This document shows, piece by piece, positions 15,310 to 43,902 of a stretch of 64,000 nucleotides of DNA. The first letter of the stretch is position 1. Each line of letters begins with the position of its first letter. Below the pieces are notes generated by a model. It was not told the origin of the DNA. It ran no database searches and saw only the letters and a list, made by a program, of their open reading frames with translations. The stretch spans positions 1 through 64,000 of the forward strand of contig JAGDMF010000006.1 of the NCBI GenBank assembly GCA_017860455.1, read 5' to 3'. The translations under genes were made by a program, and so were the position numbers. The DNA comes from Bacteroidota bacterium. Lineage in GTDB: Bacteria > Bacteroidota > Bacteroidia > Bacteroidales > WCHB1-69.

Positions 15310-16975
15310 ATCCTGACTTTGACACTTTTTTTAGCACAAGTTTGTAACTTATTAAAAGACAGAATAATATAATTTATGCGTCACCGAAATGGGTGACGCA
15401 AGGTAAAATTGTTTGTACGTAAAAAGAAAAATAGATCAGGAACAACAAGTGTTATTGTTGTTAATAAATCACAGGGTAGATTCAAAGAGGTAAAAACTAT
15501 AGGGGTAAGCGACGATGAATCTCAAATTGAGAAATATATCAATCAAGCCCGTCAATGGATTGAAATTCAAAGTGGGACTCCTGATATTTTTAAACAAAAA
15601 GCAAGAGAAGAGGAAGAGAAACAAGTTACAGAGCATTTGTTGTCAAATATTGAAAATGTGCTGATAAATGGCACACAATTAATTTTAGATAAAGTGTTTA
15701 AAATCATAGGATTTGATGCCATAGAGGATGATATTTTACGTCAATTGGTGATTGCTCGTTTAGGACAACCTATGAGCAAATCTGCTACAGTCGATTATCT
15801 TAAATCATATTTTGATGAAGATCTTCAATTATATAAGATTTATCGTTATTTAGATAAACTTTATAATACACAGCAAGAACAGATCCAACAAATCAGCGTT
15901 GAACATACTCGAAAGATATTAGGTGGCAAAATTGGACTCATGTTTTATGATGTGACTACGCTTTATTTCGAATCCGATTATAGCGATGAACTAAGAGAAA
16001 ATGGGTTTTCAAAAGATGGCAAACACAGTCAACCACAGGTTGTACTAGGATTGTTAGTGAGCAAAGATGGTTATCCGCTTTCATATTCATTATTTAATGG
16101 CTCTCAGTACGAGGGAAGAACAATGTTGCCCATTGTTGAAGATTTTGTTCAAAGATTTAATTTGGAAGATTTTGTGGTAGTTGCTGATTCCGGGTTAATG
16201 AGTAAATCAAATATATCTTTACTGCAATCAGGTGAATACAAATATATTGTAGGAGCAAGAATAAAAAATGAAACAGAAGTAGTAAAAAGGAAAATTTTGT
16301 CTTTACCAAAGCATGATAATGAATTTCATGAACTTAAAAAAGGTGATTCTCGATTAATTGTAAGCTATTCTTCAGTGAGAGCAAAGAAAGATAAATATAA
16401 CAGAGATAAGGGTATAAAACGACTTCAAAAAGCATATAAAACGGGCAATATTACCAAAGAGAACATCAACAAACGAGGGTACAATAAGTTTTTGGAGATA
16501 TCCGATAATGTAAAGGTAGTTATCAATCATGAAAAAATACAAGAAGACGAAAAATGGGATGGATTAAAAGGATACATAACGAATACATCGCTTTCAGCTA
16601 AAGATGTTTATGAACAATACAACGGATTATGGGTTGTTGAAAAAGCGTTCAGAATAACAAAAGGAACTCTTGAAATCCGACCTATGTTCCACTTTACACC
16701 ACGAAGAATTGAAGCACATGTTTGTATTTGTTTTGTTGCTTATAAGGTGTATAAAGAACTGGAACGAGTCTTAAAAACTAATAAGATAAATTTAAGTGTA
16801 GATAAAGTTCTTAATATTGCAAAAACAATAACAACTATTAAAGTTAAATTACCAATTAGTGATACAACACTCACAAAAACTATGCTAATAACGTCTAGAC
16901 ATAAATCAATTGCTATGCTTTTTGATGATCATTTCTGGAAATCCATTTAGGGTGACGCATTGTCAAAGTCAGGAT
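15310..16975 (+). mobile_element. IS1634-like insertion sequence with 15-bp perfect TIRs
   Basis: ATCCTGACTTTGACA (15310-15324) / TGTCAAAGTCAGGAT (16961-16975) bracketing a transposase ORF; 1666 bp. Confidence 0.9.
15409..16950 (+). CDS. IS1634-like (IS4-type DDE) transposase, TTG start
   Basis: MFVRKKKNRSGTTSVIVVNKSQGRFKEVKTIG...GLMFYDVTTLYFES...VVADSGLMSKSN...YNGLWVVEKAFRITKGTLEIRPMFHFTPRRIEAHVCICFVAY. Confidence 0.9.
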   Translation: MFVRKKKNRSGTTSVIVVNKSQGRFKEVKTIGVSDDESQIEKYINQARQWIEIQSGTPDIFKQKAREEEEKQVTEHLLSNIENVLINGTQLILDKVFKIIGFDAIEDDILRQLVIARLGQPMSKSATVDYLKSYFDEDLQLYKIYRYLDKLYNTQQEQIQQISVEHTRKILGGKIGLMFYDVTTLYFESDYSDELRENGFSKDGKHSQPQVVLGLLVSKDGYPLSYSLFNGSQYEGRTMLPIVEDFVQRFNLEDFVVVADSGLMSKSNISLLQSGEYKYIVGARIKNETEVVKRKILSLPKHDNEFHELKKGDSRLIVSYSSVRAKKDKYNRDKGIKRLQKAYKTGNITKENINKRGYNKFLEISDNVKVVINHEKIQEDEKWDGLKGYITNTSLSAKDVYEQYNGLWVVEKAFRITKGTLEIRPMFHFTPRRIEAHVCICFVAYKVYKELERVLKTNKINLSVDKVLNIAKTITTIKVKLPISDTTLTKTMLITSRHKSIAMLFDDHFWKSI

Positions 16976-18202
16976 TTCAAACACTGATTTAAATTTATCT
17001 ACAGATTCAAAAAAATGAGTTGTATCATTTTTTAAATGCGAAAAATGAGTTCCAATAAAATAGGTTTCTAAATGAAACTCATTACATAGATTTACAATTT
17101 TCTCATGTTCATCTGAAGAAAAATCACCCAATTCAAACATATCTCCCAAGACAGCAACTTTTTCAGAAGCATTGATCATCATAAAGTTTTCAATAGCTGC
17201 TTTCATGCTCGTTGGATTTGCGTTGTAATAATCAGCAATGATCGTATTGTTTCCCAACATTTTCACTTGTGAACGTTGATTATTGGGTGCATAAGATTGA
17301 ATAGCCTCAATAATTTGTGCATCAGAAACACCGAAAAAACGCCCTATTGAGGCAGCACATAAGATGTTATCCAGATTATAAGCTCCAGTTATTTGAGTTT
17401 TAATTTGTTGATCAAAAATTTGTATTGTTAAATAGGGATCAATCGCGGTAACTGAACCGTTAATAAATGGATCCTGATCAACCCCATAAAACTGTATTTG
17501 GGTATTATTATGTCCTGTTTTCTTAAAAGATGTTTCGATTCTGGTTTTGGCTTCTTTTACTAATAGCAGATCCTTTCCATTAACAAAAAGAACGCCGCTG
17601 TCATGAATCACGGCATCATAGAGACCCATTTTGGTTTCAACAATATTTTCATAAGATTTAAATCCTTCCAAATGGGCATTGCCGATATTGGTAACCACGC
17701 CATGAGTAGGATAAGCAAAGGTACATAATTCTGAAATTTCATTTACATGATTAGCGCCCATTTCAACAACTGCTATTTCATGTTCTTTTGTGATGGAAAG
17801 AATGGTTAAAGGAACTCCAATATGGTTATTCAGATTACCTACCGTAGATTGCACATTATACTTTTGAGACAACACTTTCGTAATCAATTCTTTAGTGGTT
17901 GTTTTACCATTTGTACCTGTGATACCGATAACGGGAATTTTCAATTCTAACCGATGGTTTGTAGCTAAAATCTGAAGGGTTTCCAAAACATTTTTAACTA
18001 CGAAGCATTGAGGATGATCTGTAAAAGATGAATTTTCAGTAACTACAAATTTTGCTCCTAATTCAAGAGCTTGATTTACAAATAGATTTCCATCAAATTG
18101 TTCCCCTTTTAGGCAGAAAAAGATAGAATAAGGAATAATTTTTCTAGTATCTGTTGAAATAACAGGGTAATTTAAAAATTGAGAATAAATTTCACTTATC
18201 AT
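16913..18202 (-). CDS. murF: UDP-N-acetylmuramoyl-tripeptide--D-alanyl-D-alanine ligase, C-terminus truncated and replaced by IS-encoded residues
   Basis: GITGTNGKTTTKELI, VGNLNNHIGVPLTIL, DYYNANPTSMKAAI; last 20 codons plus stop (ILTLTMRHPKWISRNDHQKA*) lie inside the IS at 16913-16975. Confidence 0.9.
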   Translation of the reverse strand: MISEIYSQFLNYPVISTDTRKIIPYSIFFCLKGEQFDGNLFVNQALELGAKFVVTENSSFTDHPQCFVVKNVLETLQILATNHRLELKIPVIGITGTNGKTTTKELITKVLSQKYNVQSTVGNLNNHIGVPLTILSITKEHEIAVVEMGANHVNEISELCTFAYPTHGVVTNIGNAHLEGFKSYENIVETKMGLYDAVIHDSGVLFVNGKDLLLVKEAKTRIETSFKKTGHNNTQIQFYGVDQDPFINGSVTAIDPYLTIQIFDQQIKTQITGAYNLDNILCAASIGRFFGVSDAQIIEAIQSYAPNNQRSQVKMLGNNTIIADYYNANPTSMKAAIENFMMINASEKVAVLGDMFELGDFSSDEHEKIVNLCNEFHLETYFIGTHFSHLKNDTTHFFESVDKFKSVFEILTLTMRHPKWISRNDHQKA

Positions 18203-18233
18203 AATCTGGTTTTTTAAAAATCATTTTTTACTT

Positions 18234-18263
18234 AAAAAAAAAACGGCTAAAAGCCGTTTTTAT
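18234..18263 (-). terminator. Rho-independent terminator downstream of gldJ
   Basis: AAACGGCT AAA AGCCGTTT hairpin with A-run on the + strand at its left (U-run on the minus-strand transcript). Confidence 0.8.
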
Positions 18264-18267
18264 TTTA

Positions 18268-19758
18268 CTAGTTGCTGGTTGGAGGCCCTAATCGTGCCAT
18301 TGCGCAACGGAATCCGATATAATCGGTAGCTTCATCTTCATCAAGATAGCGTCTTTGTCCTGGAGCAGCCCAATATTGAAGGTCTTTCCATGATCCACCT
18401 TTCACAACGCGTGCTTTATCACCAACTAATGAATATTTATAACTTTCATTCATATTTTTTCTATACATATAATCTGTACTCACTTTATTAGTATCTCCCC
18501 CTTGCCATCTTTCACTTTCAAGTACAGAGGCCCAGTCGCCATCTAAGAAATTTTTATTATCAGCAGTTCTATAATTTCTTCTTCTATCATTTTTGAAATC
18601 AGAAACAGGAACCATAGGCACACGACCTACACTATCTCTCTCTTCAACGGTACCATCTTCCAATAATTTTTTAGTTTCGTAGTAGTTACCTCTGAATGGG
18701 TTTAAATCAGCAGCATCCAATGCAGTATTAGGACGATAAACATCTAATACCCACTCTGCAACGTTACCACCCATATTATATAGACCGTAGTCATTAGGCC
18801 AGAATGATTTCACAGGAGCAGTTTTTTCAGCAGCATCATTTAAGTGACTGGCAACACCCATATAATCACCTCTACCTCTACGAAGGTTAGCAACGTTATC
18901 ACCCATATATTTTTTCTCTTCTGTACGAACATAAGAGCCGTTCCAAGGATAGATTCTTCTTTCAAGAACTCTTTCGTTGTAAGTATTTCCAATTAAGCCA
19001 TAAGCAGCATATTCCCATTCAGCTTCAGTGGGGAGTCTGTACTTAGGTAGAAGGATACCATCTTCCATTTTTACATTTCTGTATTCTCCGGAAGTAATAT
19101 ATTGTAATCTTCTGTCAGAGTTGGATTCATAAGCATTATCACCATAAGTTAAATATGCATCAGTATTGAAATATCCTTCTGGAGATGGAGCAACATTATA
19201 ATTTGCGAATCCCATATCCACCAATATTTTTTCATTAACACGGTCAGTTCTCCATGCAGCATAGTTCACAGCTTGTAACCAGCTAACACCAACTACAGGA
19301 TACTCTTGGAAAGCAGGGTATCTAAGATAATACTCAACATAGGTTTCTTCCATAGCCATTTTGTTTCTCCAAACATTTTCGTCTGGTACAGCATTGTCAT
19401 AAACCACTTTAAGGTCAGCAGGAACAAAAACTCTTTCCAACCAATTGAGGTATTCCAAATAGTTTAAATTGCTAATTTCGCATTCATCCATATAGAATGA
19501 GGAAACAGTAACACGTTTAGGATCGTTATCCCAATCATACATTACATCTTGTTCAACGCGGCCCATTTGAAAAGTACCACCTTCAATCAAAACCAAGCCG
19601 GGACCTGTTTCTTGTTCAGTAAATGGGAAAACTTCAAATCCTCCATTTTCAGGATCATTGAATTCCCAACCGGTAGTTGAACTGGATTCACTAGAGCAAG
19701 AAGCAAAAAGAACAGCTGCAAAGATGGATAAACCTAAATACTTTGTGATCTTATTCAT
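18268..19758 (-). CDS. gldJ: GldJ-like lipoprotein (formylglycine-generating-enzyme/SUMF1 fold), T9SS/gliding
   Basis: Lipobox FASCSS; STTGWEFNDPENGGF...EQETGPGLVLIEGGTFQMG; WLQAVNYAAWRTDRVNE; MGGNVAEWVLD. Confidence 0.85.
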   Translation of the reverse strand: MNKITKYLGLSIFAAVLFASCSSESSSTTGWEFNDPENGGFEVFPFTEQETGPGLVLIEGGTFQMGRVEQDVMYDWDNDPKRVTVSSFYMDECEISNLNYLEYLNWLERVFVPADLKVVYDNAVPDENVWRNKMAMEETYVEYYLRYPAFQEYPVVGVSWLQAVNYAAWRTDRVNEKILVDMGFANYNVAPSPEGYFNTDAYLTYGDNAYESNSDRRLQYITSGEYRNVKMEDGILLPKYRLPTEAEWEYAAYGLIGNTYNERVLERRIYPWNGSYVRTEEKKYMGDNVANLRRGRGDYMGVASHLNDAAEKTAPVKSFWPNDYGLYNMGGNVAEWVLDVYRPNTALDAADLNPFRGNYYETKKLLEDGTVEERDSVGRVPMVPVSDFKNDRRRNYRTADNKNFLDGDWASVLESERWQGGDTNKVSTDYMYRKNMNESYKYSLVGDKARVVKGGSWKDLQYWAAPGQRRYLDEDEATDYIGFRCAMARLGPPTSN

Positions 19759-19812
19759 AATCTATTGTAATATAATTTTATTAACGATTTTTTTAATTTT
19801 TTATTATAAAGA

Positions 19813-20802
19813 CTAGTAATGTGGACATTCTAGGTCTTTAATATGTTTCACTTTTTCAGGACAAGGTAATAATAATTGGAAAGTAACTTCATGAGCACCG
19901 CCTGAGCTACCTGAAAGTTCATTTACAGTAATATCATAAGAGTATCCGATTCTGAATTGTTCGTGTTGTAAACCACTGGTAAAGATCAAAGCATCTGAAC
20001 CTTGTAAACTATGGCGATACCATAGACCTACGGTAAAAGGATAGAAATTCAAATAGAAACCTTCATTAAAGTAGTGGTATGTCATTTGTTGTTGGTAGAT
20101 AAAATTAGGGCTAATAGAAACATCTCCGAAGGTCAATTCTTTTTTACTTTTTCTATAAATATCGAAAGTACCTCCCATGTGAGCAGTATATTTAATTGGA
20201 TGTCTATAAGTTTCAGAAATAAAACCAACATACATTGGAACTAAATGGTGTGCTGCAAATCCAAAGTAAAAATTTTTGAAATAGCCTAACATCCCGGCAG
20301 AGATATCCAGTTGACCCTTAACCAAGTCTCCGGGAGGAACTTCAGCCGTTTGGTATACAAATCCGTATTTTGGATCGATCATATCACCAAAAGTGAGTTT
20401 GCTCCAGTCTAAGCTTCTTTGATAGTAACCAGCTGAGAGGGCAAATCTCATATTGAATTTTCTAGTCACTTTCAACTTGAATGAATACATAAAGTTGGCA
20501 CTATACGTTTTAAATGTTCCGGTACCTTCGTGGTCACCATACAACAAAACACCAATACCCCCATTAATTTTATCAAAATGTTGATCATAACTTACGGAAT
20601 AAGTTACAAATTCACTCGGCATGCTGGGCCACTGATCTCTGAAACTGGTTGCTATTCTAGGACAAACATTTGTACCTGCCATAGCCGGATTCAAGTAGAG
20701 CGGATTAGCATAGAACTGTGAAAAATGGGCATCTTGTGCGTTTACCATACTTGTGGTAAGTAATAATGCCGTGGTTAATAGAACACAAAATAGTCTTGAC
20801 AT
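19813..20802 (-). CDS. PorP/SprF family T9SS membrane protein
   Basis: Signal peptide then QDAHFSQFYANPLYLNPAMAGTNVCPRIATSFRDQWP...GLQHEQFRIGYSYDITVNEL. Confidence 0.9.
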   Translation of the reverse strand: MSRLFCVLLTTALLLTTSMVNAQDAHFSQFYANPLYLNPAMAGTNVCPRIATSFRDQWPSMPSEFVTYSVSYDQHFDKINGGIGVLLYGDHEGTGTFKTYSANFMYSFKLKVTRKFNMRFALSAGYYQRSLDWSKLTFGDMIDPKYGFVYQTAEVPPGDLVKGQLDISAGMLGYFKNFYFGFAAHHLVPMYVGFISETYRHPIKYTAHMGGTFDIYRKSKKELTFGDVSISPNFIYQQQMTYHYFNEGFYLNFYPFTVGLWYRHSLQGSDALIFTSGLQHEQFRIGYSYDITVNELSGSSGGAHEVTFQLLLPCPEKVKHIKDLECPHY

Positions 20803-20944
20803 ATTAAAATTCGATTTTTGCGTTGCAAAAGTAATTATTTTTTTCTAATATTCGTTTTATATTTATCATTAATCTTATAATTTTTTTCTTTTTTAATCGT
20901 TATTTATCAAAAAAATAACCGAATATCAATTATTATAACGGAAT

Positions 20945-23900
20945 ATGGAACAAAAATCTTGGGTGCTGATACTATTTTTTATTAGTTTTTTGCTTTTTTC
21001 ATTTGATAATCAAGCACAAAATATTAATAAAACCTATACTATTGAGTGGGAAAATCCTCAAATGAACATCAACGAAGATGGATCTGAAGTAAAATTACTC
21101 TATTTTAAAGAGGCATTTTATGAAAATGAGTTCCCTTCCTTACCTGTTTATGTTGATAAAATTTTAGTTCCGGCAAATTATAATACATACCAATATATTA
21201 TTACCGATTTAATAACTGAACCTTTCAGTGCAGAGGATGCTGCATTGATTCCATCCGGATATCGTAAAAACAATGTTTCCGTTCAAATAACTACCGCTGC
21301 TTCTAAAAATCAAAATTTTGCATTAATTCATTTTATTCCCATTATATACTCAGGAAATAAAGCTCAAAAAGTAACTTCATTTAAAATAGAGATTACACCC
21401 AGTAGTGTAGCACCTATCAAAAAATACAAAGGGGTTTCAAATTCTGTTTTATCCTCTGGAAACTGGTATAAAATTGGAATCGTTAATTCAGGCATTTATA
21501 AAGTGACTTATGAAAATCTCGTAGCTATGGGAATATCTTCATCTGCAATGAATTCATCCCATTTATCCCTTTTCGGAAATGGAGGCAATATGTTACCTGA
21601 ACGCAACAATGTAGACAGACCTTCCGATTTGGTTGAAAATAGTATCTGGATTCAGGATGGAGGTGATGGCGTTTTTAATGCCGGTGATTACTTTTTATTT
21701 TATGGTAAAGGGATCCATTCCTGGTCAGTTGATGCTCCATTGCAAACTTTTACACATAATTATAATGTATACGCTGATAAAACTTATTATTTTATCACTT
21801 TTGATCCCACAATTGGTTTAAAAAAAAGGATAACTCAAGTGGATAATTCAGGTTTGTCGGATAATATATCCATCAATTCTTTTACTCATTACGATTTTTA
21901 TGAAAACGATAAATATAATTTTGCTGAATCGGGAAGACAATGGTTTGATGAAGGATTTGAAATTGAAAACACAAAATCATATAACTTTAACTTACCAGAA
22001 CCCTTAGGAACTCCATTAAGATTAACTTTTGTGGCAGGAACTACCATTAGTCAAAGCTCCTCATTTTCGATTGTTGTTAACAATACGACTTTACAAAACA
22101 TGTCACTATCTGCAGTCATGTCAGGAAATTTTGGGGTTTCCAATGTTAAAAATTACTCCGTTAATAATCCTTCAACTCCTTTACATATTTCAATGACTTA
22201 CAACAAACCGCAATCTTCATCGATAGCCTATTTGGATTATATTGAACTGCAATTGGACTGTTATTTAAAATTCTACAAAGATCAGTTTCCATTTTGTGCT
22301 CCTCAGTCTGTAGGTGAAGGGAATATTGCAGTTTTTGAAATGAGTAACGCCAATAGTGCAACAAAAATCTGGGATATTTCCAATCCTTATGAACCTGTTC
22401 AAATACTAGGCAATTTAACTAATTCTGTATTTTCTTTTAAAACTTCCACCAATACTTTAAAGTATTTTCAGGCATTTAATGGAAATAGTTTTTTAAGTGT
22501 CTCAACTATCGGGAAGATCAATAATCAAAATCTGATTGGAACCTCTGATGTAGATATGATCATCATTACTCATCCTGATTTTCTGTCTGAAGCAAAAAGA
22601 CATGCCCAATTGAGATCCAATAGTGAAGGATTGTCTATTGTTGTGGTTACTCCGGAGCAGGTTTACAACGAGTTTTCATCCGGAACTGCTGATCCTACAG
22701 CTATTAGAGATTACATGAGAGCTGTTTACAAAAAAACAGAAGGTGAATTTCCTCAGTATTTATTGCTATTCGGAAGACCCTCTTATGACTACAGAGGAAG
22801 AGTTTCCGGCACCAAATTATTCGTTCCAAACTATCAATTACAGGAATCTTTCAGTGAAAACAATTTGAGAGCCAATGACGATTATTTTGGGGTATTGGAT
22901 GATAATGAGGGGGAATCCGGTTTTGGATTGATCGATATCGGTATCGGTAGATTTCCGGTAACAACATTAAATCAAGCAGCCATCTGTGTAGATAAAACAG
23001 CCAATTATACTGCCAGACAAAGTTTAGTATCCGATAATTCTACCATCATTTCCAATTATGGAGATTGGAAAAATGTGATCACTTTTGTTGGAGATGATGA
23101 GGAGGATAATTACCACATGATGACTGTAAATGCAGGCGCTATCAAAGTTGGGGCCAGATATCCCCATTTCAATTTGGACAAAATCTATTGTGATGCGTTT
23201 GAACAAGTTTCTTATGCCGGAGGACAAAGATATCCTGAAGTAAACAAAGCGATCAATAACAGAATGCAAAAAGGATCTTTGATTTTTGCTTATGCCGGTC
23301 ATGGTGGTGCCAATGGTTGGGGACATGAACGCTATTTGGAAATTTCTGATATCAACAAATGGACTAACAAATACAATCAACCCTGGATGTTTAATTTTAC
23401 TTGCTCTTTTGGGTGGATTGACAGAAAATCTGTATCTCCTTCTGAACTGATCTTTATTAACGACAAAGGGGGAGCTTCAGCCATGCTCACAACAACAAGA
23501 GTTGCTTTTGCAGGACCCAATTATATTTTTTGCGAACATCTTTTTAATGTACCATTTATTGATGATAATAACAACGTCATCACAATTGGAAATTTGAATA
23601 AAGAGGGAAAAAACAGAGCTTCCAATAATGATAATTTAAGAATGTTTGTTGTTTTAGGAGACCCTTCTTTAAAATTAAGTTTTCCAGTTTACAATGTGAT
23701 AACGGATTCTATAAATGGAGTTTCTGTTTTGCAGGAATCTGACACCATCAGAGCATTGGAAAAAGTAACAATTAAAGGTCACGTAACCGATTTGAATGGT
23801 ACTATTTTAGAGCAGTTCAACGGCTCAATTTTCCCTTCTGTCTATGATAAAAGTGTCAGAGTCTCTACCTTAATGAATGATCCTGATCAAGTAGATGGTC

Positions 23901-24772
23901 CTTTTGAATTTGAGGTTCAAAAAAATATCATTTTTAAAGGAAATGCTTCAGTAATAAACGGTTATTTTGAGTTCACGTTTATTGTTCCTAAAGATATCAA
24001 TTATGCTTATGGAAACGGAAAGATAAGCTATTACTTCAAATCTTCCAATATGGATGGAAAAGGGTACACTTCAAATTTCATTATTGGTGGTGTGAGTCCA
24101 AATCCAATAACTGATGAAAAAGGTCCTGAAATTCACATTTTTTTAAATGATGAAAAATTTGTCAACGGAGGAATTACGAATCCTAATCCTCAATTGATCG
24201 TAAAACTGAAGGATGATAATGGTATTAACACAACCGGAAACGGAATTGGGCACGATTTAATTGCGATTTTAGACAATAACTCTGACTCACAAGTAACACT
24301 CAACGACTTTTATCAAGCTGAAAAAGATAGTTTTAACACAGGAATTGTTAGATATCCATTGACCGATATAGCTCCAGGCACCCATACTTTAAAAATCAGA
24401 GCCTGGGACATTGCCAATAATGTATCGGAATCCACCATCGAATTTACGGTTATGAATGATGCAAATCTTGAAATTGAGCATGTTCTCAATTATCCAAATC
24501 CATTCACAACCCATACTCAATTTTTCTTTGAGCACAATCAACCCGGTCAAACCTTTGACATTATGGTTCAAATCTTTACTATTTCCGGTAAATTAGTGAA
24601 GACTATCCACTCTACACAATTTTTAACAGGCACCCGTTCAGAGGGTATCGACTGGAATGGGTTGGATGATTTTGGCGATAAATTGGCAAAAGGAACTTAT
24701 GTTTACAAATTGCTGGTTCGAAATGCAAATCATGATACTGTAGAAAAATTTGAGAAAATTGTTATCTTATAA
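20945..24772 (+). CDS. porU: T9SS sortase PorU (C25 gingipain-like peptidase)
   Basis: VDMIIITHPDFLSEAKRHAQLRSNSEGLSIVVVTPEQVYNEFSSG..DPTAIRDYMR; catalytic FAYAGHGGANGWGHE and FNFTCSFGWID; C-terminal FlgD-like segment. Confidence 0.92.
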   Translation: MEQKSWVLILFFISFLLFSFDNQAQNINKTYTIEWENPQMNINEDGSEVKLLYFKEAFYENEFPSLPVYVDKILVPANYNTYQYIITDLITEPFSAEDAALIPSGYRKNNVSVQITTAASKNQNFALIHFIPIIYSGNKAQKVTSFKIEITPSSVAPIKKYKGVSNSVLSSGNWYKIGIVNSGIYKVTYENLVAMGISSSAMNSSHLSLFGNGGNMLPERNNVDRPSDLVENSIWIQDGGDGVFNAGDYFLFYGKGIHSWSVDAPLQTFTHNYNVYADKTYYFITFDPTIGLKKRITQVDNSGLSDNISINSFTHYDFYENDKYNFAESGRQWFDEGFEIENTKSYNFNLPEPLGTPLRLTFVAGTTISQSSSFSIVVNNTTLQNMSLSAVMSGNFGVSNVKNYSVNNPSTPLHISMTYNKPQSSSIAYLDYIELQLDCYLKFYKDQFPFCAPQSVGEGNIAVFEMSNANSATKIWDISNPYEPVQILGNLTNSVFSFKTSTNTLKYFQAFNGNSFLSVSTIGKINNQNLIGTSDVDMIIITHPDFLSEAKRHAQLRSNSEGLSIVVVTPEQVYNEFSSGTADPTAIRDYMRAVYKKTEGEFPQYLLLFGRPSYDYRGRVSGTKLFVPNYQLQESFSENNLRANDDYFGVLDDNEGESGFGLIDIGIGRFPVTTLNQAAICVDKTANYTARQSLVSDNSTIISNYGDWKNVITFVGDDEEDNYHMMTVNAGAIKVGARYPHFNLDKIYCDAFEQVSYAGGQRYPEVNKAINNRMQKGSLIFAYAGHGGANGWGHERYLEISDINKWTNKYNQPWMFNFTCSFGWIDRKSVSPSELIFINDKGGASAMLTTTRVAFAGPNYIFCEHLFNVPFIDDNNNVITIGNLNKEGKNRASNNDNLRMFVVLGDPSLKLSFPVYNVITDSINGVSVLQESDTIRALEKVTIKGHVTDLNGTILEQFNGSIFPSVYDKSVRVSTLMNDPDQVDGPFEFEVQKNIIFKGNASVINGYFEFTFIVPKDINYAYGNGKISYYFKSSNMDGKGYTSNFIIGGVSPNPITDEKGPEIHIFLNDEKFVNGGITNPNPQLIVKLKDDNGINTTGNGIGHDLIAILDNNSDSQVTLNDFYQAEKDSFNTGIVRYPLTDIAPGTHTLKIRAWDIANNVSESTIEFTVMNDANLEIEHVLNYPNPFTTHTQFFFEHNQPGQTFDIMVQIFTISGKLVKTIHSTQFLTGTRSEGIDWNGLDDFGDKLAKGTYVYKLLVRNANHDTVEKFEKIVIL

Positions 24773-24828
24773 AATATTATTAGTATTTTTGCGTTTCTTT
24801 TGAATTATTATCAGCAATTTATATCTAT

Positions 24829-26076
24829 ATGACAAACAAAAGCATATTTTTAACTGTACTTATCTTACTATCAATAACTTTAGCTCATTCTCAGGACTCT
24901 TTTGATTTTGAAAATCCTTCTGCTCCCTACTATAATGCCATGACTACAGCAGTTCCATTTCTTATGATTTCCCCTGATTCAAGAGGTGCAGGAATGGGAG
25001 ATATTGGGGTTGCTTCATCCGCAGATATCAATTCTCAACATTACAATGCTGCTAAATACGTGTTTAGCAAAAGTAAATTCGGGATCTCAATGTCCTATAC
25101 TCCTTGGTTAGCCGAGTTGGTGAATGATATTGACTTAGCCTATGTTTGTGGGTTTGTTAAATTAACAGACATGGATGCTATTGCATTTTCTTTAAGATAT
25201 TTTTCATTAGGTTCTATTCAATTTACTGACTATTTTGGATATAATATCGGACCGGAAAGAACACCACACGAATTTGCGATTGATGCTTCCTATTCCAGAA
25301 AATTCTCTGACCATTTTTCAATGTCTTTGACTCCTCGTTTCATATACTCCAATCTTGCATCTGATGTAGTGGTTACCGGTGTTGAAATGAAACCGGGAAC
25401 AGCTATCGCTGCTGATTTAGGTATGTTTTATGAACAAGATTTTGATTCTCAAAGTTTTGAAAATCAAACATTTAGAGCAGGTGTCTGTTTCTCAAATATT
25501 GGAAATAAAATATCCTATACTGATGGTAGTATCAATAAAGATTTTCTACCTACCAATCTTAGAATTGGTCTTTCCTACACCATGGATATTGACAAGTACA
25601 ACAAATGGAGTTTCTTAGGGGAAGTAGGAAAACTGTTAGTACCAACCAATCCCGTTAAAAAGGTCAATGAATTAGGTACTCCGATTACTAATCCGGATGG
25701 AAGCTATGTGTATTATGGTAATGGTATGAATCCAAAAGATATCAGTACTTTTCAAGGTATTTTGAGATCTTTCTATGATTCTCCGGGTGGTTTTAATGAA
25801 GAGATGAGAGAAATTGTATTTGCTGTTGGTACAGAATATGTGTACAACGATCTGTTTTCCATTAGATTAGGAACATTTTTTGAAAACCAGTATAAAGGGG
25901 ATCGAAAATTTGGAGAAGTGGGAGTTGGTTTGAAATACAATGTATTTATTATTGATGTTTCTTATCTGGTCACATTCACCAACAGAAATCCATTAGCCAA
26001 TACGTTAAGATTCTCATTATCCTTTGATTTTGAATCGTTTTATGCTAAAGATATAAAAAGACAAGGCAAAAAATAG
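24829..26076 (+). CDS. porV: T9SS outer membrane protein PorV
   Basis: ITTAVPFLMISPDSRGAGMGDIGVAS-type motif (TAVPFLMISPDSRGAGMGDIGVASSADINSQHYNAAKYVFS). Confidence 0.92.
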   Translation: MTNKSIFLTVLILLSITLAHSQDSFDFENPSAPYYNAMTTAVPFLMISPDSRGAGMGDIGVASSADINSQHYNAAKYVFSKSKFGISMSYTPWLAELVNDIDLAYVCGFVKLTDMDAIAFSLRYFSLGSIQFTDYFGYNIGPERTPHEFAIDASYSRKFSDHFSMSLTPRFIYSNLASDVVVTGVEMKPGTAIAADLGMFYEQDFDSQSFENQTFRAGVCFSNIGNKISYTDGSINKDFLPTNLRIGLSYTMDIDKYNKWSFLGEVGKLLVPTNPVKKVNELGTPITNPDGSYVYYGNGMNPKDISTFQGILRSFYDSPGGFNEEMREIVFAVGTEYVYNDLFSIRLGTFFENQYKGDRKFGEVGVGLKYNVFIIDVSYLVTFTNRNPLANTLRFSLSFDFESFYAKDIKRQGKK

Positions 26077-38145: not shown

Positions 38146-38934
38146 ATGGCTCAAATAACAGGAATTATTACAACCCTCAATGAAGAACACAATATAGTTG
38201 ATGCAATAAGTTCACTTCAACTTATTTGTAATGAAGTTATTGTTATAGATTCCAATAGCAGTGATCAAACGATTGAATTAGCAAAATCGATGGGTGCTAT
38301 AACCTATCTGCAAGCATATTTGGGTGACGGGATTCAAAAAAATGTAGGAATACAATTTGCAAACAACGATTGGATTTTTAGTATGGATGCTGATGAAAGG
38401 ATCACTCCTGAATTAGCCCAAATCATTAATACCATTGATTTTCAAAACACTACTTATTACGGATTTGCAATCCGAAGAAGAAATATGATAGGTAGTCGCT
38501 GGGTAAAAAGTTGTGGTTGGTACCCTGATTATCTCGTACGTCTTTTTAAACATTCTCAGATTCGTTTTGGAGAAGAAAAGCAACATGCCTCTGTTCCTAA
38601 TGTAAATACCCTAAAATTAAAAGGTGACTTACTCCATTTCAGTTATAAAAACATAGGAGAACTCTTTGCTAAACCAGAACGGAATTTCAGCACTAGAGGT
38701 GCTAAAATATTATATCTTAAAGGTAAAAAAGCTACTGTTTTTACTCCGTTTTTACATGGATTTAGTGCATTCTTTGTGAATTACTTTTTTAAAGGAGCCA
38801 TTTTAGAAGGGATTGATGGATTTACATTAGCTTTATCAATAGCAGTGAACAGCTTTTTAAAATATGCCAAATTACTGGAATATCAAAGGGATCCTAAAGT
38901 TAGGGAACAGGAAGATTTTAACAGTGTCTGGTAA
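38146..38934 (+). CDS. Glycosyltransferase family 2 (LPS core-type)
   Basis: ITGIITTLNEEHNIVDAISSLQLICNEVIVIDSNSSDQTIELAK; WIFSMDADERITPEL. Confidence 0.9.
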   Translation: MAQITGIITTLNEEHNIVDAISSLQLICNEVIVIDSNSSDQTIELAKSMGAITYLQAYLGDGIQKNVGIQFANNDWIFSMDADERITPELAQIINTIDFQNTTYYGFAIRRRNMIGSRWVKSCGWYPDYLVRLFKHSQIRFGEEKQHASVPNVNTLKLKGDLLHFSYKNIGELFAKPERNFSTRGAKILYLKGKKATVFTPFLHGFSAFFVNYFFKGAILEGIDGFTLALSIAVNSFLKYAKLLEYQRDPKVREQEDFNSVW

Positions 38935-38955: not shown

Positions 38956-41229
38956 ATGCAACCATTAGCAGAGATCTTAAGACCAAAAACACTGGAGTCC
39001 TATATTGGACAAAAGCACCTTGTCGGGGAAGGTGAAGTGTTGAGGATAGCTGTGGAAAACCGACAGATTCATTCCATGATTTTATGGGGCCCACCGGGAG
39101 TAGGAAAAACAACTTTAGCGCTCCTTATTTCTGAACTGGTAGATGCTGAATGTTACATGTTGAGTGCAATCAGTTCCGGAGTTAAAGATATTCGTTCCGT
39201 TATTGACAAAGCGGAACAATCTGAAAAAGTATCCGTATTATTTATTGATGAAATCCATCGTTTCACCAAAGCACAGCAGGATTCTTTATTAGGAGCTGTG
39301 GAGCGGGGTGTTGTTACTCTAATTGGTGCAACTACCGAAAATCCATCGTTTGAAGTGATTGCACCTTTGCTTTCCAGATGCCAGGTATACGTCCTTAACT
39401 CTTTGGACAAAAGCGACCTGGAGCAAATCAAAGATACTTGTATTACGTATCTACAACAAGAGATGGGAATAACCATTGAAGTTGAAGAGAGTGAAGCTCT
39501 GTATCGGATTTCGGGAGGAGATGCACGTAAGTTGATCAATGCCATTGAGTTAACAGTAAAATATATCAAACCGGAAAATGGAGTTTTAAGGATTACCAAT
39601 GAGAATGTAACCAAATGTATTCAGAAAAACTTAGCCATTTATGACAAAGCCGGTGAAAATCATTACGATATTATTTCAGCATTTATCAAATCGATCAGAG
39701 GTTCTGACCCAAATGCAGCGGTTTACTGGATGGCGCGGATGATTAATGCCGGCGAAGATCCCCTTTTTATAGCAAGAAGAATGATTATCCTTGCATCTGA
39801 AGATATTGGAAATGCAAATCCCAATGCATTACTTTTGGCCAATAGTTGTTTTCAGGCTGTCCATCAGATCGGAATGCCGGAAGGTCGTATCATTTTGTCA
39901 CAAACTGCCATTTACTTAGCCTCATCACCTAAGAGCAACGCTTCTTATAGTGCTATAGATGAAGCGATTGAATGGGTTTATAAAACCGGAGACCTTCCTG
40001 TGCCACTCCACATCAGAAATGCCCCCACTTCTTTGATGAAAGAGTTAAATTATGGCAAAGATTATCAATATGCACACTCTTTTGAGCACAATTTTGTAAA
40101 TCAGGAGTTTCTACCGGAATCGATCAGCGGCAAAAAATTTTATGAACCACAAGATAATCCTCGTGAAAATGAACTTAGGAAATACTTAAAAAATTGCTGG
40201 AAAGATAAATACAGATATATTTTACTCTTTTTGATCGGATTATTCTCATTTGGACTCATCCAGGCTCAGGATTTACACTATTCTCAGTATTATACTGCAC
40301 ATTATCTTTTGAATCCGGCCATGACAGGCGTTTATGATGGCACTTTCAGGGCCAATCTGAATCAAAAAACACAATGGTTATCGGTAACTAAACCATTTGT
40401 ATCTTTATCGGGAAGTATTGATGCACCGATTTACAAAAACAACAAATTGAAGCATTTAGTGGGACTTGGGTTAAACATCAACAGTGACGAAGCGGGAGAT
40501 TCAGAGTTCAGATCCTTAGATATCAATTTAGCTGCATCATTTGTAAAAAGTATCGGGTATAAAAATAACCATAAAATCGGAATTGGCGTCACCGGAGGCT
40601 ATGTACAACGCTCTTTAAATTATGCAGCACTCCATTTTGATGAACAATTTCAATTTGGATTTTACGATCCCACCAATCCTATAACCGAGCTCTTTGGAGA
40701 TTCTAAAATCACCTATTTTGATATGGGATTAGGCGTGTTTTATAGCTATTCCCCTAAGAAAAATCAGATCTATTCCTTTGGATTCAGTGCCTATCATTTA
40801 GGAAGGCCCAATCAATCTTACCGACAAGGAACAGTGGTATTGCCTATCCGTTTTACACCCTATTTTGGAGCCAGAATCCCATTAACCGGATTTTTAACTT
40901 TAACTCCGTCCGCATTTGCTTCTTTACAAGGCAATTTTAGTGAATACACTTTAGGTAGTAATCTGGAATACAGCATCAAAAAAAATTCTTATACAACTTT
41001 GGTCACATTTGGAGCCGGTTTGTTTTACAGATGGAGCGATGCTTTGATTATCAATGTGATCATGGACATTCAAAACTTGCGGATTGGTGCCAGTTACGAT
41101 TTGAATCTCTCCACTTTTACACCGGCTACCAGAGTTCGGGGTGGTTTTGAGATCTCTATACAATATTTATATAAAAAATCTTCTATTGGAAGAACCGGTA
41201 GAGAACCGTGTCCTTATGAAATCATGTAA
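38956..41229 (+). CDS. RarA/MgsA AAA+ ATPase fused in frame to a PorP/SprF-family T9SS membrane protein
   Basis: N-terminus [18 protein letters not shown]...[14 protein letters not shown]...[17 protein letters not shown] (RarA), ends ..[14 protein letters not shown]; then [50 protein letters not shown] (signal peptide + PorP/SprF) with no intervening stop. Confidence 0.85.
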
Positions 41230-41238
41230 GCTATTAAA

Positions 41239-42852
41239 ATGAAGACATTTACACTGGTTTTTCTACTCTCTTTTGTTTCTCTTTATCTTGCAGCACAAGA
41301 TATACCCAAGGATGTTGCATTCCGGTTGCAACAAATTCAATTTATTAAAAACAATAATCTTCCTGTAAAGGTTGAGTTATTACCCAGATATATCAACACC
41401 GACAATTCAGAATACAAAGGGGAATTAACACCCGATTCCATATTTTATTTTTCATCCTTAATCTCATTAAGTGATGATGACAATGAAAATATATTTGACG
41501 CTTACTGGATGGGCAAAATTTACTCTTCTAATCTCACTATTAGCGGTTATTCAACACCGGAGCCATTGCCCAAAAATATCAACAGTAAAAAATATTACAA
41601 TATCAATTTTAGTTTCAATAAAGCCCGAAACATTCTATTTTTTACCCGTTGTTCCAAAACGGCCTATCCACACCTGATATGTGATATCTGGCAATCTGAG
41701 CTTAAAAATGGGTCATGGCAGAAAGCTGTAAAACTTCCGGAACAAATCAATCAGCCGTTTTGTAATAACACACAACCTCATCTGGTTGAAACACCTAAAT
41801 ATTCAGTTTTATATTTTGTTTCAAACCGAACCGGTTCTGAAGGGGGTTTAGATATCTGGTACTCCATATATAAAGATGGTAAATTTGAAGATCCGGTTAA
41901 TCTCGGATCTATAATTAATACACAAGGAAATGAAGTGACCCCATTTTATGATTTAAAGGATGGAATGCTCTATTTTAGTTCTGATGAACACATTGGAATT
42001 GGCGGATATGATATTTTTTATTCCAAAGGGGCACTCAGTGACTGGAGTGAGCCAACTAATATCGGGGTTCCTTTCAATTCAGACTATAATGATGTGTATT
42101 TAACTTTAAATCAGGACCAAAAGAGTGGTTATTTTTCCTCTAACCGACCCAATAAAAAATATTCTCATCGGGAATGTTGTAATGACATTTACTCTTTTCA
42201 ATGGAATTATCCAAAAGATTCTACCAAACAAATTGTTACAATTGACACGATTTCTAAAATGGAACAAATCCAGTCATTAATACCACTAACTTTGTATTTC
42301 AACAATGATGAACCCGATCCAAAATCGGATGCAACAACGACCCTCACCAATTACAAGCTAACGATATCCAATTACATTGCTATCAAAGAGAAATTCAAAC
42401 AAGAGTATGCACGTGGTTTAAATGCTGATGATCAACTCATTGCCAAACAAGCGATTGAAGTATTCTTTAAAGATTCTGTTGAAAAAGGGTATTACCAATT
42501 ATTAGATTTTTGTCAATTGATCAAAGAAGTTCTACAAGATGGCAAAACAGTGACCATCACAGTACAAGGATATGCCAGTGCTTTGCATAAATCGGATTAC
42601 AATTTTAAATTATCCTCCCGCAGAATCTCCAGTTTTGTTAATTTTCTAAGGGAATATAATGATGGTGAACTTCTCCCCTACCTCACCGGGGAAACCAAAA
42701 ACAGATTACAAATCATTGAAGTCCCTTTAGGAAGTCAGGAAGCAGTAGCAAAGAATCTAAGTGCCAATATTCATGACCAGCGCAACTCTGTTTATAGTAT
42801 AGCAGCTTCCAAAGAAAGAAGAATTCAGGTTGTTAACATTCAAATAGATTAA
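41239..42852 (+). CDS. PD40 repeat protein with OmpA-like C-terminus, T9SS-associated (PorE-like)
   Basis: Signal peptide; VLYFVSNRTGSEGGLDIWYS, GMLYFSSDEHIGIGGYDIFYSKG; C-terminal VTITVQGYASALHKSDYNFKLSSRRISSFVNFL. Confidence 0.8.
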   Translation: MKTFTLVFLLSFVSLYLAAQDIPKDVAFRLQQIQFIKNNNLPVKVELLPRYINTDNSEYKGELTPDSIFYFSSLISLSDDDNENIFDAYWMGKIYSSNLTISGYSTPEPLPKNINSKKYYNINFSFNKARNILFFTRCSKTAYPHLICDIWQSELKNGSWQKAVKLPEQINQPFCNNTQPHLVETPKYSVLYFVSNRTGSEGGLDIWYSIYKDGKFEDPVNLGSIINTQGNEVTPFYDLKDGMLYFSSDEHIGIGGYDIFYSKGALSDWSEPTNIGVPFNSDYNDVYLTLNQDQKSGYFSSNRPNKKYSHRECCNDIYSFQWNYPKDSTKQIVTIDTISKMEQIQSLIPLTLYFNNDEPDPKSDATTTLTNYKLTISNYIAIKEKFKQEYARGLNADDQLIAKQAIEVFFKDSVEKGYYQLLDFCQLIKEVLQDGKTVTITVQGYASALHKSDYNFKLSSRRISSFVNFLREYNDGELLPYLTGETKNRLQIIEVPLGSQEAVAKNLSANIHDQRNSVYSIAASKERRIQVVNIQID

Positions 42853-42861
42853 TCAAATCCT

Positions 42862-43902
42862 ATGAAAAAACTCATATTTTTTATACTATTTTTTAATTTC
42901 ATTAACATTATTTCTGCTCAGGATCTATTTTATGACATTAGAGTAACTCATTTTTTTGACAACAGAGAGTATGAAAATCCCTATTGTGATCCTCAGACAC
43001 TATTTGGCATCCGTTTTTCACCGGAATTAGGGTGGAAAAAAACGGACAGGGAAGGGTCTACCCATTTTGTAAAACTGGGAGTCCATTATTTACAGCCGTT
43101 GGGTGCTCCTATTCAAATGGGACAATGGGATCCGATAATCTATTATCAATATCAAAAGAAAGGGTACAATCTTCATTTTGGGATTATTCCCTACCAAAAA
43201 TTAATAGAAAAGTTACCGTTATATGTGAAGTCAGATTCGATTTCCTATCAATATCCGAACATTAATGGAGCATTGTTTCAATATAAAGGTGATCATGGGT
43301 TTTTTGAAGGGATTTTAGACTGGCGGGGAGCGATGAGTTCACAAACCAGAGAAGCTTTCAGAGTGATTTTAAAAGGACGATACTACATCCATAATTTCTC
43401 GATTGGTGGGATCACTTTTTTGAACCATCTATCCAACAAAGCGCCAACAGAACCAAAAGAGGGTGTTTGTGATGACTATTTTGTTTCTCCTGAAATAGGT
43501 TTTCATTTGACTAAAAATAAAATTTTAGACACCACGAGTATCAAAGTTGCCTACTTATTTGGATCCACCAGAGAGCGGATCACCAATAAGCAATATCAGG
43601 CACACGGTATTGGGATTGATCTTTTCCTTAAATGGAAGTATTTGGGATTCAACAACAGTTTTTATTGGGGGGACAACTTATTCCCGTTTTACGAAAAATA
43701 TAACAGTACGCTTCATTTAGGAGATCCATTTTACAGAGCAACAAGATACAACAAGACATCCCTCATTTTATATTTAGTACAAAAAGAGTTTGTCACTTGT
43801 TCCTTTTCCTGGAATTTTCATTTTTTAAAAGGGTATCCTGTTGGACATCAACAACTGTTACAAGTACAAATCGACTTAGATAAACTCACTTTTAAACACT
43901 AA
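42862..43902 (+). CDS. Hypothetical outer-membrane/secreted protein
   Basis: 346 aa, signal peptide MKKLIFFILFFNFINIISAQ, beta-rich aromatic sequence; overlaps no other ORF, same operon. Confidence 0.7.
   Translation: MKKLIFFILFFNFINIISAQDLFYDIRVTHFFDNREYENPYCDPQTLFGIRFSPELGWKKTDREGSTHFVKLGVHYLQPLGAPIQMGQWDPIIYYQYQKKGYNLHFGIIPYQKLIEKLPLYVKSDSISYQYPNINGALFQYKGDHGFFEGILDWRGAMSSQTREAFRVILKGRYYIHNFSIGGITFLNHLSNKAPTEPKEGVCDDYFVSPEIGFHLTKNKILDTTSIKVAYLFGSTRERITNKQYQAHGIGIDLFLKWKYLGFNNSFYWGDNLFPFYEKYNSTLHLGDPFYRATRYNKTSLILYLVQKEFVTCSFSWNFHFLKGYPVGHQQLLQVQIDLDKLTFKH

Follow-up and report, generated by a model that had tools for sequence, protein, structure and literature searches.

In Bradyrhizobium japonicum, cytochromes b and c1 are made from a single reading frame as the FbcH polyprotein, which signal peptidase cuts at an internal signal peptide. 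Signal-anchor regulators of the ToxR/CadC type (type II) likewise place a folded N-domain in the cytoplasm, followed by one N-in/C-out segment and an exported C-domain. Within the type IX secretion system (T9SS), proteins of the PorP/SprF family form complexes with PorE and type B CTD proteins, as described for PorP-PorE-PG1035 of P. gingivalis and for SprF-SprB of F. johnsoniae (PMC9143113, PMC12635249), and the C-tail cysteine of F. johnsoniae SprF is disulfide-bonded to GldK (PMC12635249).

Here, we describe a gene that joins a RarA ATPase to a PorP/SprF protein in one frame, within a stretch of 64,000 nucleotides of Bacteroidota DNA that was analyzed as a whole (herein referred to as the window). 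A literature search returned no paper joining RarA and PorP; its apparent matches turned out to concern Prevotella rara or to mention rarA in an unrelated context. We propose, with a probability of roughly 0.78 and on the strength of comparative sequence evidence, that RarA-PorP is a clade-conserved fusion made as one polyprotein and cut by signal peptidase I.

Organization and Distribution of the Fused Gene

The frame at 38956-41229 on the forward strand runs from an ATG to a TAA (41227-41229) through 757 codons without a stop and leads from a complete RarA into a PorP/SprF protein, as an earlier note on this DNA had claimed. The RarA/MgsA moiety (residues 1-421; 38956-40218, forward strand) matches the Pfam families AAA, AAA_assoc_2, and MgsA_C (PF12002; residues 249-414, 240.8 bits against a cut-off of 27), possesses the features by which a RarA is recognized (an AAA+ core with invariant GPPGVGKTT in Walker A and DEIHRF in Walker B, and the MgsA C-terminal domain), and matches the E. 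coli MgsA/RarA structure 3pvs (E=4e-106). It ends at Tyr421 (TAT, 40216-40218), the position at which stand-alone RarAs of the same family also stop (..CWxxKYxY*). The codon that follows is ATT (Ile422, 40219), the first of a 16-residue hydrophobic core (40219-40266, forward strand), after which the mature PorP begins at Gln438 (40267) with QDLHYSQ, a typical opening of mature PorP/SprF proteins.

The mature PorP moiety (320 amino acids; 40267-41226, forward strand) matches Pfam PorP_SprF (PF11751) over residues 436-737 (138.4 bits vs. 22.3) and NCBIfam T9SS_PorP_fam (TIGR03519; 174 bits vs. a cut-off of 90.55). The AF2 model of this moiety (pLDDT 80) predicts an outer-membrane β-barrel of 14 strands, a feature that belongs to the model, and Foldseek searches with it returned FadL, OmpG, and the T9SS translocon chains 8gl6_F and 6h3i_F. 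The hinge and the RarA C-domain are of low confidence in the full-length AF2 model, and we hence draw no geometric inference for either. Toward the C-terminus of PorP, a cysteine in the tail (Cys752; EPCPY..M; 41209-41211, forward strand) is invariant in 35 of 35 aligned PorPs, fused and split alike. Because the fused PorPs have this single invariant cysteine in their tails, a covalent link like that between SprF and GldK is possible, and Cys752 may by analogy be regarded as a candidate disulfide anchor.

Among close pairs with estimable dS, dN/dS ranges from 0.01 to 0.06 for RarA and from 0.03 to 0.09 for PorP; such ratios indicate strong purifying selection on each half. A second clear rarA is absent from nearly all of the fused genomes, several of which are at least 95% complete, and the one genome that departs from this, G098, is 9% contaminated. 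For RarA, whose family comprises DNA-dependent ATPases active at replication forks, the low dN/dS implies that function has been retained.

The next gene downstream (41239-42852, forward strand) encodes a PorE-like OmpA/PD40 protein (PD40; 151 bits to NF052230 T9SS_PorE, for which the cut-off is 600), which matches 85 loci and is a conserved neighbor of this porP whether the locus is fused, split, or from an outgroup. Beyond it lies an open reading frame of 346 amino acids (42862-43902) that has a signal-like sequence at its N-terminus; it matches nothing in Pfam or NCBIfam, and the related loci contain no equivalent. Upstream of the fused gene, a family 2 glycosyltransferase gene (38146-38934, forward strand; PF00535) is syntenic only in the closest relative (L074/L094, one and the same contig) and is hence placed outside the system. 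SprA was found in 8 of 8 fused genomes tested, each of which also has 12-19 matches to type B CTD proteins, none of them assigned to this PorP. The window also contains a T9SS neighborhood about 13 kb from the fused gene (16916-26076), made up of murF, gldJ (18271-19758, reverse strand), a second, stand-alone porP (19813-20802, reverse strand), porU (20945-24769), and porV (24829-26073), with a transposase of the IS1634 family (15409-16947) adjoining murF.

An initial search of 60 relatives recovered the uninterrupted fused frame from 15 other genomes at ~60-68% identity. Across the host's Bacteroidales family, the stop-free frame with the same junction occurs in 59 of 105 genomes and 9 of 17 genera, a count that includes a few loci cut by contig ends as well as G072, which has a TAA near the RarA start. 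Of 71 loci from a scan of named genomes, about 56 are fused, and every locus comes from uncultured Bacteroidales/Bacteroidetes MAGs; these belong to many independent projects and to sources such as horse faeces and the rumen and further stomachs of sheep, goat, yak, buffalo, and deer. Outside the family, no fused gene was found among 295 genomes sampled from 185 genera of the order, which were searched with a strict threshold that should still admit fused genes. Two loci depart from the pattern. In G072 (L115), the in-frame TAA near the beginning of RarA is either an error or a sign that RarA is translated from a later start; in G068 (L151; locus L057:5231-5242), the frame is broken in a T run inside the signal peptide, near-identical relatives are fused, and the break probably stems from faulty assembly or a recent lesion.

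An Internal Signal Peptide That Begins within RarA

The junction has the makings of a signal peptide (40159-40266, forward strand) in which the basic RarA tail serves as the n-region, the hydrophobic core follows directly, and a signal peptidase site is predicted at Ala437|Gln438. These features recur in 55 of 55 fused sequences: the last 20 residues of RarA carry a net charge of +3 to +6 in every one, the core is 16-19 residues long with a best 12-residue mean hydropathy averaging 2.84 (n=55), and the distance from the last RarA tyrosine to the glutamine keeps to a fixed range of 16-19 residues. Position -1 is alanine in 42 sequences, glycine in 10, serine in 2, and threonine in 1 (n=55), and position -3 is small (A, S, T, C, G, or V) in 47 of 55. 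Positions +1 and +2 are QD or QN in all 55, although the motif used to find the site itself fixes Q and D/N, such that only the preceding residues are free observations. A single open frame spans an internal hydrophobic signal whose -3/-1 site is conserved, the arrangement expected of a polyprotein processed by signal peptidase. The earlier note had offered a real fusion with processing as one explanation; the fusion and the conserved internal signal and site stand in 55 of 55 sequences, and cleavage is what we infer from them.

Typical PorPs have an N-terminal Sec signal with a start codon of its own, which is present in the split and outgroup orthologues and missing from the fused proteins. 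As this signal characterizes typical members and not the profile, membership of the PorP domain in the family stands. A stand-alone outgroup PorP opens MRRYIILFYFILFISCFSEAQDIHF, close in sequence to the fused junction, and L177, a stand-alone orthologue from another family of the order, begins M-RRYIILFYFILFISCFSEAQDIHF. To judge from these sequences, the natural K-Y-x-Y ending of RarA stands in for an n-region of the L177 type. Among eight fused genomes, signal peptidase I was detected in seven and a protease of the RseP type scored above the cut-off in five.

A Proposed Polyprotein Route to RarA and PorP

We hypothesize that a porP-porE pair landed behind rarA in an ancestor of the fused clade and that the rarA stop was lost, whereupon the basic C-terminus of RarA would have replaced the 'MKKYI'-like n-region of the PorP signal peptide; with the RarA tail in this role, the start codon of porP would have become dispensable. 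The pair itself appears to predate the fusion, since the orthologous porP of other genera stands alone, with this PorE-like gene coming after it in most cases (12 of 16 outgroup loci). The fused gene would be translated as a single chain, with RarA made and folded in the cytoplasm and the hydrophobic stretch read by SRP/Sec as an internal N-in/C-out signal. PorP would then be exported and released by signal peptidase I at Ala437|Gln438, a site whose conservation is observed and whose cleavage is predicted, and would, by analogy with its family, form a 14-stranded barrel in the outer membrane and act there as a carrier of type B CTD proteins with its PorE-like partner.

RarA would be left with a hydrophobic tail of 16 residues, which might tether it to the inner membrane or from which it might be freed by an RseP-type intramembrane protease; RseP acts on signal remnants. 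A further consequence can be put forward only tentatively: if the C-terminus of RarA doubles as the n-region of the signal of an outer-membrane protein, the only RarA of the cell would, once cleavage has taken place, be bound to the inner membrane at least for a time, and its output or location might be coupled to the export of a type IX surface carrier.

Fusion, Splitting, and Persistence

To place the fusion in its evolutionary context, we compared a RarA tree (77 rows) with a PorP tree (72 rows), each built from the corresponding part of the protein. The two are congruent, both need seven changes between the fused and split states (at least six of which are forced by well-supported branches in the RarA tree and at least four in the PorP tree), and in both the split loci of genus g7 are nested within the fused clade. 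The simplest account of these topologies would be one fusion followed by several secondary splits. The hydrophobic cores of fused genes share an identity of 0.37 across genera (0.18 when shuffled), and those of g7 fused genes an identity of 0.40 with other genera (0.27 shuffled), whereas cores are dissimilar for the g7 split genes (identity of 0.32; 0.28 when shuffled). In split porP genes, the n-region and usually the start belong to porP itself, and the signal peptides are unrelated to those of fused genes. An independent fusion in each genus is unlikely, given that the cores are alike and the junction length is fixed. The earlier note had raised the prospect of separate rarA and porP frames in close relatives, and some do exist, but the trees make most of them secondary splits with new signals.

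Split RarAs end exactly at KYxY*, which would suit selection against a stranded hydrophobic tail. In one genus, such endings could also mean that unfused alleles have to some extent recombined in, or that fusion occurred more than once, and because they leave this room for recombination the number of independent splits is uncertain. Within g7, recombination of split alleles is possible, as several split signal peptides have a FALLLxLC core in common. Several split loci contain toxin-antitoxin-like pairs between rarA and porP (L063:5240-5845; also L125, L146, L147, L155, and L061), called by eye as RelE-like with HTH or as HigB/HigA-like, and the fusion joint is an apparent hot spot for insertion.

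That splits are tolerated indicates that the covalent link between RarA and PorP is not essential, and the fusion may be a non-adaptive relic: a working polyprotein whose link brings no benefit, fixed once and occasionally undone by insertions or splits. This concerns why the fusion persists and is compatible with the polyprotein explanation of how its products are made. We would give it even odds, setting the state changes forced on the RarA tree, the split loci with toxin-antitoxin-like inserts, and their newly acquired signal peptides against the long retention of the fusion in nine genera.

Alternative Explanations of the Junction

PorP could instead be made separately from an internal start, either at a non-ATG codon at the junction or at an in-frame methionine such as Met361, with or without some readthrough from RarA. 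As the earlier note observed, the PorP start lacks an ATG, and the one at 40169 lies in another frame. That note missed a TTG at 40231, which is in frame; this codon is not conserved and would as a start give a signal of 12 residues without an n-region. The first codon past the last tyrosine of RarA (n=35 fused sequences) is ATC in 14, ATT in 7, GTG in 7, GTC in 3, GTA in 2, ACT in 1, and ATA in 1; it is kept as an isoleucine or valine residue, not as a codon. A codon-by-codon table of the 35 sequences revealed no shared ATG, GTG, or TTG position at the junction; L051 has no such codon in frame anywhere between -45 and about +40 codons of the junction, and L007, L011, and L017 have none within the signal or closer than 11 codons upstream. 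In a raw scan, synonymous divergence seemed to dip close to the junction, but the dip was gone after correction for amino acid composition (O/E of 0.97, 0.92, and 0.98 at -30, -15, and 0 codons), and the corrected ratios near 1 give no indication of an overlapping signal for ribosome binding or initiation.

These scattered or absent codons, together with the unconstrained synonymous sites, exclude a conserved internal start at ATG, GTG, or TTG, and the non-ATG initiation that the earlier note had entertained is thereby refuted for GTG and TTG as a conserved mechanism; initiation at ATT, ATC, or GTC is still compatible with the sequence, as is an uncleaved product. Separate production of PorP has in its favor the GTG, GTG-ATG, or TTG codons near the junction in some members (including the seven with GTG as first codon), the TTG of the window, and the near-invariance of Met361. 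Met361, however, lies within the conserved C-terminal domain of RarA and would leave ~60 residues ahead of the signal, and a start at the junction would give a 16-residue signal shorn of the basic RarA tail and hence of any n-region, whereas split porP genes have n-regions of their own. We consequently regard separate production as unlikely. In a sub-clade of g7 (L006, L041, and L042), GTG-ATG stands exactly at the junction (Y-V-M), and an added internal start is therefore possible there, though not family-wide.

A stable, uncleaved fusion, anchored in the membrane with RarA in the cytoplasm and PorP past the inner membrane, is very improbable. The hydrophobic stretch is long enough for a signal-anchor, and the fusion has lasted across nine genera; however, the PorP barrel begins directly past this stretch, leaving no linker that could bridge the periplasm, the A/G|Q-D/N site is conserved, and splits are tolerated. 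Finally, the suggestion of the earlier note that a sequence or assembly error removed the stop and start is refuted for the clade, as is chance, and has a negligible probability overall: the window genome is 65% complete and its assembly incomplete, and G068 has a homopolymer frame break within the same segment, but the fixed junction recurs in independently assembled genomes from 9 genera (59 of 105 genomes), when an artefact would be confined to one assembly and lack conservation, and dN/dS is low on both sides of the junction.

Comparison with Known Systems

If the polyprotein explanation is correct, Sec and signal peptidase can use a signal that lies ~420 residues into a chain, behind a folded cytoplasmic enzyme, and the natural C-terminus of a soluble protein can double as the n-region of a signal peptide. 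The fused and split orthologues would then constitute a natural series for studies of internal-signal recognition, which also bears on whether signal remnants tether or release an N-terminal partner and on how such polyproteins originate and are undone. Software that annotates genes or repairs frames automatically would mistakenly split the RarA-PorP gene.

The known PorP-PorE and SprF complexes resemble this locus in the PorP family itself, the PorE-like neighbor, the C-tail cysteine, SprA, and the many type B CTD proteins. They differ in that known PorP/SprF proteins are encoded by separate genes with N-terminal signals, whereas the signal of the fused PorP is internal and starts in the RarA tail, and in that the SprF tail has Cys-X-Cys where the fused PorP tail has one conserved cysteine. 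Other RarA fusions, represented by the NCBIfam PRK13341 models (599-736 amino acids), likewise consist of RarA with an extra C-terminal part, and the match to our protein is through the RarA part; their C-terminal part is unmatched here, the scores fall below the cut-offs, and the models imply no signal peptide or outer-membrane domain. Regulators of the ToxR/CadC type share the cytoplasmic N-domain, the single N-in/C-out segment, and the exported C-domain that we propose for RarA-PorP, but are not processed to yield a separate outer-membrane barrel. The nearest known precedent for a RarA-PorP polyprotein is FbcH, in which one bacterial frame also encodes two proteins with an internal Sec signal between them, the cleavage being predicted in our case; FbcH yields two subunits of one inner-membrane complex, whereas the gene described here would yield a soluble DNA-repair ATPase and an outer-membrane secretion protein.
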